A DNA stretch of 64,000 nt. Origin: Funiculus sociatus GB2-C1. Lineage in GTDB: Bacteria > Cyanobacteriota > Cyanobacteriia > Cyanobacteriales > FACHB-T130. The stretch spans positions 1 to 64,000 of the forward strand of contig NZ_JAMPKJ010000021.1 of assembly GCF_039962115.1 (NCBI RefSeq), given 5' to 3'. The position numbers and the translations under genes were made by a program. The notes under the pieces are model-generated. The model made no database searches. It saw only the letters and a list, made by a program, of their open reading frames with translations, and had not been told where the DNA came from. Shown in pieces: positions 13,247 to 14,437 of this stretch. The number at the start of each line of letters is the position of its first letter. Positions within the stretch are counted from its first letter, which is position 1.

Positions 13247-13363
13247 ATGGCAGCTTCATTCTTACCTTCAATTTTGGTCCCTCTAACTGGCTTGGTCTTC
13301 CCAGCTATAGCAATGGCTTTCCTCTTTCTTTACATTGAACATGAAGACCCAACTGGGATTTAA
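13247..13363 (+). CDS. psaI: Photosystem I subunit VIII PsaI
   Basis: A 38-residue single-span protein, too short for a standard gene track. It starts [15 protein letters not shown] and continues through a hydrophobic segment to FLYIEHED. This is the pattern of PsaI (AAS-x-LP-x-I-x-x-P ... FP ... M-x-x-LF-x-x-IE). PsaI sits at the periphery of photosystem I, next to PsaL, and supports trimer formation. Here psaI is not next to psaL but converges on the psbEFLJ operon, with two hairpins between them. Confidence 0.88.
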
Positions 13364-13381
13364 TAGCTACAAATTAAAAAC

Positions 13382-13411
13382 CCGCCCTTCCGGTTAGGAC
13401 GGGCGGTTTTT
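13382..13411. terminator. Bidirectional terminator psaI/psbJ
   Basis: A stem CCGCCC (13382-13387) with GGGCGG (13401-13406), extended inward by three more pairs, is flanked by A-run and T-run on opposite sides (AAAAAC before, TTTTT after). It can therefore end transcription from psaI and also from psbJ. Confidence 0.85.
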
Positions 13412-13414
13412 CTA

Positions 13415-13440
13415 AAGGATGTAGAAGCTTCTACATCCTT
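13415..13440. repeat. Perfect 26-bp palindrome
   Basis: AAGGATGTAGAAG at 13415-13427 is followed immediately by its exact reverse complement to 13440, centred on AAGCTT. It lies 13 bases beyond the psbJ stop. It may be a second terminator or transcript-stabilising hairpin. Confidence 0.8.
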
Positions 13441-13452
13441 CTTTGTTTATGC

Positions 13453-13572
13453 TTACAAAGAGGAGCCTAAACCAGCATAGGCACCATAGAAGAAAGTACC
13501 TAATACGGCGATAATACCTAAACCAGCGACTGTCGCTACAATCCACAATGGGATTCTTCCACTTCCAGACAC
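13453..13572 (-). CDS. psbJ: Photosystem II protein PsbJ
   Basis: A 39-residue single-span subunit near cytochrome b559, involved in PSII assembly and plastoquinone exchange. The product begins [17 protein letters not shown] and ends [11 protein letters not shown], which matches PsbJ over its whole length. The start codon is GTG at 13572, with a strong ribosome-binding site (AGGAGG) at 13581-13587. It is the last gene of psbEFLJ but is separated from psbL by 325 bases, much more than is usual. Confidence 0.95.
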
Positions 13573-13587
13573 AGCTTTTTCCTCCTA

Positions 13588-13885
13588 ATTAAACTCGAAC
13601 TAGCTTTATTTAATCAAACTCAGTTAGGCGAAGCACTCACTGTTATAGGGCTTTCGCACTATGACAGAAGCTTCCAGTTTCACTCGCCGTTGCCTCCCTA
13701 TACGAATGTATAGTGTGGTTTTACACAGCGTCCGGAGGTTTTGCTTAGGTTTCCCTAGCACTGACTCCCGTACTACTTGCGTAGTACCCTGGCAGACACC
13801 CGCCTCCCGCAGGCACAATTTCTGTTGTTACACCGCTTGGTTTTCGCTTATCCCGAAGAGCCGCTATACCTAGCTGGTATAGCGG
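13588..13885 (-). mobile_element. Structured insert between psbL and psbJ (element remnant or RNA)
   Basis: This noncoding stretch is rich in hairpins. Perfect arms occur at 13861-13870/13876-13885, 13770-13776/13781-13787, 13698-13703/13708-13713 and 13713-13716/13723-13726, and an arm pair with one mismatch at 13640-13648/13659-13667. CCTCC (13693-13697) can pair with GGAGG (13734-13738) and close a multi-hairpin domain. The minus-strand frame 13624-13818 looks like a degenerate C-terminal tail of a TnpB-type protein (RRVKLEASVIVR near its end). I infer a non-autonomous IS200/IS605-type remnant carrying a guide-RNA-like 3' region. A group II intron fragment is the main alternative. Boundaries are approximate. 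Confidence 0.45.
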
Positions 13886-13897
13886 AATTCTGCGATT

Positions 13898-14020
13898 TTA
13901 GTTAAAGAAATAACTGGAAAACAAAATTCCCAAAACGAAGACAAGTAGCAATCCTAAGAACAGAGAAGTCCTGTTTAACTCAACTGGCTGATTATTAGGA
14001 TTGGGAAGACGATCCGGCAT
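13898..14020 (-). CDS. psbL: Photosystem II protein PsbL
   Basis: A 40-residue single-span PSII subunit at the dimer interface. The sequence starts [20 protein letters not shown] and ends [10 protein letters not shown], the classic PsbL pattern. The ATG at 14020 lies 9 bases after the psbF stop, so psbF and psbL are tightly coupled. Normally psbJ follows closely; here a structured insert intervenes. Confidence 0.95.
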
Positions 14021-14029
14021 CGGTTTCTC

Positions 14030-14167
14030 CTATCGTTGAATAAATTGCATGGAAGCGATCGCGCCCAAGAAAAAGACTGTAGGCACAGCCAGAGTGTGGA
14101 CAGCAAGCCATCTAACGGTAAAAATCGGATAAGAAACTGGTTGATTTGCTGGAGTATTGCTAGTCAT
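14030..14167 (-). CDS. psbF: Cytochrome b559 beta subunit PsbF
   Basis: A 45-residue protein with one membrane span. It contains the heme-ligand His24 in [18 protein letters not shown] and ends with the conserved SMQFIQR. With PsbE it forms cytochrome b559 of the PSII reaction centre. It starts 24 bases after the psbE stop in the same operon. Confidence 0.97.
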
Positions 14168-14191: not shown

Positions 14192-14437
14192 TTACTTGAT
14201 AAATTGCTCTATTTGATCTTTTGATTCAACACGATCTTGCACAATTGGCACTTCCGTCCGATTTGGAGTGAAATACTCATTGGGGCGGGGTGTTCCAAAC
14301 GCATCGTATGCCAATCCAGTTTGAACAAATAGCCAACCAGCAATAAACAATGCTGGGATAGTGATGCTGTGAATCACCCAGTAACGTACGCTCGTAATAA
14401 TGTCCCCAAACGGACGCTCTCCAGTAGTACCAGCCAT
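14192..14437 (-). CDS. psbE: Cytochrome b559 alpha subunit PsbE
   Basis: An 81-residue PSII subunit. The single span [18 protein letters not shown] includes the heme-ligand His23. The lumenal part has the conserved [17 protein letters not shown] strong ribosome-binding site (AGGAGG) lies 9 bases before the ATG. It is the first psb gene of the operon, 134 bases after ycf48; this conserved order links cytochrome b559 synthesis with the assembly factor. Confidence 0.97.

Follow-up and report, generated by a model that had tools for sequence, protein, structure and literature searches.

What separates psbL from psbJ in the psbEFLJ operon of Funiculus sociatus GB2-C1, and where did it come from? 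In the DNA analyzed here (the window, 64,000 nucleotides in all), 325 nt lie between these two genes, and the original prediction had read most of this stretch as a structured insert left by a mobile element. The genes of the operon, for each of which Pfam agrees, and the neighboring photosystem I gene are as follows.

14192-14437, minus strand: psbE
14030-14167, minus strand: psbF
13898-14020, minus strand: psbL
13453-13572, minus strand: psbJ
13247-13363: photosystem I subunit VIII open reading frame (Pfam PSI_8)

Between psbJ and this photosystem I gene, at 13380-13440, terminator-like hairpins were seen on both strands.

RESULTS

An oversized gap with a bounded insertion

A shared contig carried psbL and psbJ in 97 of the 100 genomes surveyed, our own included, and the gap between them ranged from 17 to 325 nt with a median of 55, F. 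sociatus GB2-C1 being the maximum. The four other genomes of the same family in the sample have gaps of 46, 47, 47, and 77 nt, and twelve other genomes have gaps of 137 to 293 nt. The spacer is predicted to fold more stably than its shuffled versions (-106.7 kcal/mol versus a mean of -90.3; z = -3.05; 0 of 100 shuffles equal), and relatives preserve its hairpins and closed multi-hairpin domain through compensatory changes, so that both the unusual length and the structured nature originally described for this gap were confirmed. BLAST of the spacer against plasmid and phage collections returned no matches.

Comparison with the same-family genomes sets the bounds of the insertion. At the psbL end, three of them (L059, L060, and L062) carry the empty site TTTAAC followed directly by TAACTGGG and the fourth (L102) carries TTTAAC followed by TAACTGGT, TTTAAC-TAACTG being common to all four, while F. 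sociatus GB2-C1 reads TTTAAC, then 274 nt, then TAACTGAG. The insert is therefore 13627-13900 on the minus strand, in sense with psbEFLJ, and its excision yields a psbJ leader similar to those of the relatives. An insert does exist, as originally proposed for 13588-13885, with bounds that had to be moved, 13573-13626 being the pre-insertion psbJ leader. In sense orientation the insert starts with TAA, which is the psbL stop codon or a repeat of that stop; the TAA after TTTAAC can be read either as element sequence or as a 3-base repeat (target duplication). Trichocoleus sp. FACHB-40 (L125, genome G101, listed as the same species) carries the same insertion at the same site, and the 7.2 kb that contain it are 98.4% identical (L133 lies within L125, as L141 does within L126). 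As judged from these junctions, an ancestor of the species acquired the insertion at the psbL end, directly behind TTTAAC. The parts of the element are listed below with the evidence for each; R1 and R2 are the covariance models described in the next section.

13627-13900, minus strand: complete inserted element, 274 nt (empty site of relatives and similar joined flanks)
13901-13906, minus strand: target or TAM-like motif TTTAAC, the final two psbL codons (enrichment upstream of kin)
13861-13885, minus strand: left-end hairpin, 10-bp stem (predicted fold; hairpin-like sequence also after relatives' left ends, by eye)
13629-13815, minus strand: omegaRNA-like core with expanded domain (R1, R2, BLAST)
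13798-13814, minus strand: P1, the core's first hairpin (two-sided changes at 6/6 pairs across kin)
13731-13788, minus strand: extra domain, 58 nt, two hairpins (48- to 75-nt domain in 28/45 ORF-less rows and 0/17 tnpB-linked rows)
13685-13730, minus strand: P4, the hairpin following the domain (two-sided changes at 6/6 pairs)
13630-13673, minus strand: right-end terminal hairpin (two-sided changes at 12/12 pairs)
13607-13626, minus strand: would-be TnpB guide site directly past the right end, here psbJ leader (position only)

The insert RNA resembles RNAs at tnpB 3' ends

In DNA comparisons, the insert matched sequences in 10 of 100 genomes, our own included; those outside our own genome were pieces with 68 to 96% identity. 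BLAST of the core to ORF-less copies reached a best E value of 1.1e-16, and none of the 14 loci first examined had a tnpB frame in its open reading frame list. The exact core pattern occurs at four places in genome contigs and at none in viral contigs. An alignment of eight ORF-less copies, the psbL-psbJ insert among them (A3), showed two-sided changes at 26 of 42 structure pairs, and 0 of 500 shuffles reached any of the five measures used. From these eight copies, with a structure adjusted by eye on A3, the covariance model R1 was built; the insert, as a training member, scores 176.8 bits. In a later alignment fitted to the model (A6), two-sided changes appear at 41 of 42 pairs (0 of 500 shuffles), a count that leans towards the R1 structure because the alignment was fitted to it.

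R1 matched at least 49 of the 100 genomes, our own included, and among its weaker matches were tnpB 3' ends (61 to 81 bits, some as low as 39); all four proteins tested at those ends carry OrfB_IS605, Cas12f1-like_TNB, and HTH_OrfB_IS605. For a second model, R2, 11 tnpB-linked RNAs were given an alignment of their own and an RNAalifold structure. R2 contains none of the insert's sequence but is not wholly independent, since R1, trained partly on the insert, served to locate and trim these RNAs. R2 gave a single match in the 64 kb, at 13629-13760 on the minus strand (34.4 bits; E = 3e-7), and matched 20 of 21 ORF-less loci at E values of 0.0036 or less, missing L010. The score of the insert is modest, and R2 aligns P1 to a hairpin of the extra domain. 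Across our whole genome, R2 gave at least three matches at E values up to 1: a recA leader (48 bits, the best among those listed), the insert (34.4 bits; E = 3e-5), and a third match no better than chance. All copy counts are lower bounds because only part of the first-look candidates was scored (per whole-genome search, at most 24 for R1 in the 100 genomes, 8 for R1 across the order, and 150 for R2 in our genome).

The window had zero matches in Rfam 15 at gathering scores, and a relaxed search of 13400-14100 gave six weak matches without an intron, a ribozyme, or HEARO among them, the best being the Plastid-psbJ-2 3' UTR (E = 0.004, below the gathering score), at the psbJ end and outside the insert. 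Group II intron and HEARO were accordingly rejected as candidates, neither model giving a match. The missing Rfam match says little about the insert, since six tnpB-linked loci with the same RNA type also had none. Comparison with RNA models, to which the mobile-element reading had been tied from the start, thus turned out both ways, Rfam being silent and the model from tnpB-linked RNAs matching the insert. By these alignments, the predicted insert RNA is homologous to TnpB omegaRNAs.

Both R1 and R2 matches stop at 13629, two bases short of the element end. The insert shares the guide-side layout of an omegaRNA, its scaffold stopping at the right end with the guide position next; PMC10278001 describes the right end as the 3' boundary of the omegaRNA scaffold and places the guide beyond the element. 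Hairpins are subterminal at both ends, in a layout resembling that of the tnpB elements of relatives (partly by eye). No TnpB similarity was found within the insert, and 274 nt are too short for tnpA or tnpB; lacking both, it is filed as a non-autonomous derivative rather than as a full IS200/IS605 member.

Ends, target motif, and mobility of the kin

The right end reads TAGTTCAC in 16 of 17 tnpB-linked rows and TACTTCAC in 21 of 33 ORF-less rows, and TTCGCC instead of TTCAC in the insert. The base that follows TTCAC varies among kin, T, A, G, and C all being seen, unlike IS607 as described in PMC10711439. Of the 32 other ORF-less rows, 14 have TTTAAC in the 420 nt upstream of the core (shuffle mean, 4.1; 0 of 500 shuffles reach 14), and in 18 it was not found there. 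Left ends and gene orientation of the kin were judged by eye, the upstream flanks of L139 and L141 being short. So judged, left-end-like sequence follows TTTAAC in ORF-less kin such as L029, L046, L105, L120, L122, L137, and L142, and the same pattern was seen in the tnpB elements L050, L054, L056, L057, L112, and L114; in several tnpB elements, TTTAAC precedes the left-end hairpin upstream of the gene.

Genome G038 holds two ORF-less copies of 463 nt each. Excision of one restores an open frame exactly, presumably that of an ABC transporter by its residues, and removal of the other (L014) leaves its host gene one base out of frame. Since one copy rejoins its frame exactly on removal, ORF-less kin have moved recently.

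Two other psbL-psbJ gaps, those of L095 (G035:C21) and L096 (G075:C168), have, at the same TTTAAC, sequence resembling a left and a right end, without an R1 match, the element-like sequence in the G035 gap being 103 nt. These element-like ends suggest that the psbL end is a repeated target.

A protein-less family with an expanded RNA

In an alignment of 62 R1 matches (17 tnpB-linked and 45 ORF-less), the link between two helices was measured. Rows were labeled tnpB-linked by tblastn with one TnpB, or with three for 18 further loci and the TTTAAC test. The link is 4 nt in 17/17 tnpB-linked rows and 58 nt in the psbL-psbJ insert; the 45 ORF-less rows divide into 28 with 48 to 75 nt, 6 with 39 to 40 nt, and 11 with 4 to 7 nt, where 28/45 is no frequency because R1, by whose high scores the rows were mostly chosen, includes the domain. 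In 24 of these 28 rows, 12 or more of the 14 pairs of the two-hairpin domain form, often with sequence near GGAGUNAGUGC...GCAAAACCUCC; fewer form in L018, L022, L037, and L040.

No TnpB similarity was found in the flanks, mostly 1.5 kb per side, of the 18 further loci with high scores, two of them at places already sampled. Across the order, at least 39 of 291 genomes, our own included, have an R1 match at E values of 1e-22 or less. As a test of constraint, three orthologous ORF-less pairs were compared, with a mixed outcome: the elements are 86.3%, 95.4%, and 95.1% identical, the first less so than its flanks and the other two above one flank only. BLAST of the L017 copy against the plasmid collection gave no matches. 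Judged by sequence and covariation, the insert belongs with other scattered protein-less copies, in a family whose RNA frequently bears the extra domain.

A conserved module of ~175 nt was also seen between left end and core in 21 rows, representing 18 distinct places and several families (A7; L014, L029, L034, L037, L039, L042, L105, L109, L118, L124, L144, and L145 among them). RNAalifold gives it 31 pairs, 18 with two-sided changes (no shuffle control), and no long shared frame was found in it among ORF-less copies. The psbL-psbJ insert lacks this 5' module.

State of the element in its own genome

Both Y1 TnpA matches of our genome hold in-frame stops (G000:C131:3252-3596 and G000:C14:4047-4295). 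Four TnpBs are present, 35 to 40% identical to the query TnpB; R1 found nothing at their 3' ends, and R2 gave weak matches at three of the four loci (E = 0.006, 0.16, and 0.3). Taking the TnpB search, R1 at these 3' ends, and R2 together, no TnpB with the RNA type of the insert was found in this genome. Nowhere else in the genome do the 18 nt past the right end match perfectly, and hits with 2 to 3 mismatches are no commoner than for a control pattern. Between our genome and that of Trichocoleus sp. FACHB-40, 8 substitutions fall in the 274 nt and 105 in the other 6,900 nt (p = 0.08), so that the insert changes no slower than its surroundings. The second genome also holds a tnpB-linked RNA (L127; R2, 81 bits), whose TnpB is 56% identical to that of L056. 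From the TnpA stops, the missing TnpB of the same type, the missing second guide match, and the rate of change, we take the insert to be a relic tolerated by the operon.

DISCUSSION

We propose that the insert is very probably a non-autonomous, ORF-less IS200/IS605-type element made of a left end, an omegaRNA-like RNA, and a right end, lying in sense and now an immobile, nearly neutral relic. This reading is based on the R2 match, the target motif, and the end hairpins, all of which agree with tnpB elements; together with the empty site, they bear out the IS200/IS605-type remnant with a guide-RNA-like region of the original prediction, whose TnpB coding tail had to be given up, no TnpB similarity being found there. 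The element was most likely mobilized in trans by a TnpA transposase and would presumably be cotranscribed with psbEFLJ. From what is known of TnpB biology, a TnpB able to bind its RNA would be guided by the psbJ leader to cut insertion-free alleles, thus favoring retention; in PMC8612924, TnpB is proposed to cut the donor joint beside the motif, with the same outcome. In its own genome, the element is most likely immobile and evolving roughly neutrally.

Could the element have been co-opted as a cis-acting leader or processing site setting psbJ output relative to psbEFL? Its sense orientation immediately ahead of the psbJ leader, shared by the two genomes seen for the species, and its nearly complete set of formed stems would suit such a role. 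However, other ORF-less copies adjoin unrelated genes and are in some cases convergent with their neighbor (by eye, uncounted), the terminator-like sites of the operon strand all fall outside the insert, and no slower change was observed; moreover, no other measured genome has a gap this long, and no R1 match was found in 13 other psbL-psbJ gaps (the twelve of 137 to 293 nt and that of G001). We consider this co-option unlikely. We grant similarly little probability to an active guide RNA, bound by a TnpB encoded elsewhere and directing cuts of insertion-free alleles. The kept stems, the TTTAAC motif, the guide position over the psbJ leader, the four TnpB genes of our genome, and L127 in the second genome would all fit, but the TnpBs of our genome have different 3' RNAs, and near-matches to the 18 nt past the right end, for which no other perfect genome match exists, stay at control level.

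Two further explanations are highly improbable. Group II intron debris, also put forward originally, or another ribozyme could account for the closed multi-hairpin domain, but neither the Rfam gathering scores nor the six weak relaxed matches brought up an intron or ribozyme, and the RNA has positive homology to tnpB 3' ends. Growth of the spacer by chance, without a mobile element, might be entertained since twelve other genomes of the 97 have gaps of at least 137 nt without an R1 match; it is contradicted by the exact empty site, the homologous copies elsewhere, the covariation, and the element-like ends at the same TTTAAC in G035 and G075. We thus retain the ORF-less IS200/IS605-type relic.

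Like IS200/IS605 elements with TnpB and omegaRNA (reRNA), the insert has the 3'-end RNA architecture, the right-end hairpin, an insertion site after a short motif, a variable base past the right end, and a guide position outside the element; unlike them, it has neither tnpA nor tnpB, measures 274 nt in total, carries a 58-nt extra RNA domain, and ends in TTCGCC. Non-autonomous derivatives of IS200/IS605 are named MITE-like elements or PATEs, and the insert resembles them in consisting of ends without ORFs, presumably moved in trans; what may set it apart is a conserved guide-RNA-like RNA that covaries and has gained a domain. Standalone HEARO or IscB omegaRNAs are likewise guide-RNA-like RNAs without an adjoining protein gene, from which the insert differs in having no HEARO match in Rfam and in its relation to TnpB RNAs. 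In titles and abstract openings of the literature, with subscription papers mostly outside, we found no ORF-less TnpB-type elements with omegaRNA in cyanobacteria and no description of an insert in psbEFLJ, which is weak evidence of novelty.

Our study shows that TnpB-type guide RNAs can travel on elements without any gene, that these protein-less elements have an RNA domain absent from 17 tnpB-linked relatives, and that an essential photosystem operon can accommodate one of them. Should the RNA still function in trans, one could test directly whether protein-less elements with a guide RNA persist via the TnpB of other copies. More tentatively, and with the balance rather against it, this cyanobacterial family of protein-less transposons may carry an expanded guide RNA, an omegaRNA core with a conserved two-hairpin domain and often the ~175-nt 5' module. 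No longer bound by the coding constraint of tnpB, this RNA may engage TnpB or some other effector in trans and may have turned into a lasting trans-acting guide-RNA system, in which one copy would take its guide from the leader of a photosystem II gene.

The original prediction also turned to relatives and repeats, and here the outcome is mixed: the same spacer is present in a close relative and DNA comparison found no second close copy of the insert in our genome, while R2 gave the distant omegaRNA-like match before recA. This locus (L128; G000:C42:48357-48472, minus strand; 48 bits) has a counterpart in the second genome (L129; 43 bits). Both are in sense, the likely recA start (Pfam RecA) following ~65 nt downstream; the locus shows no TnpB similarity, and the two are possibly a second omegaRNA-derived leader.
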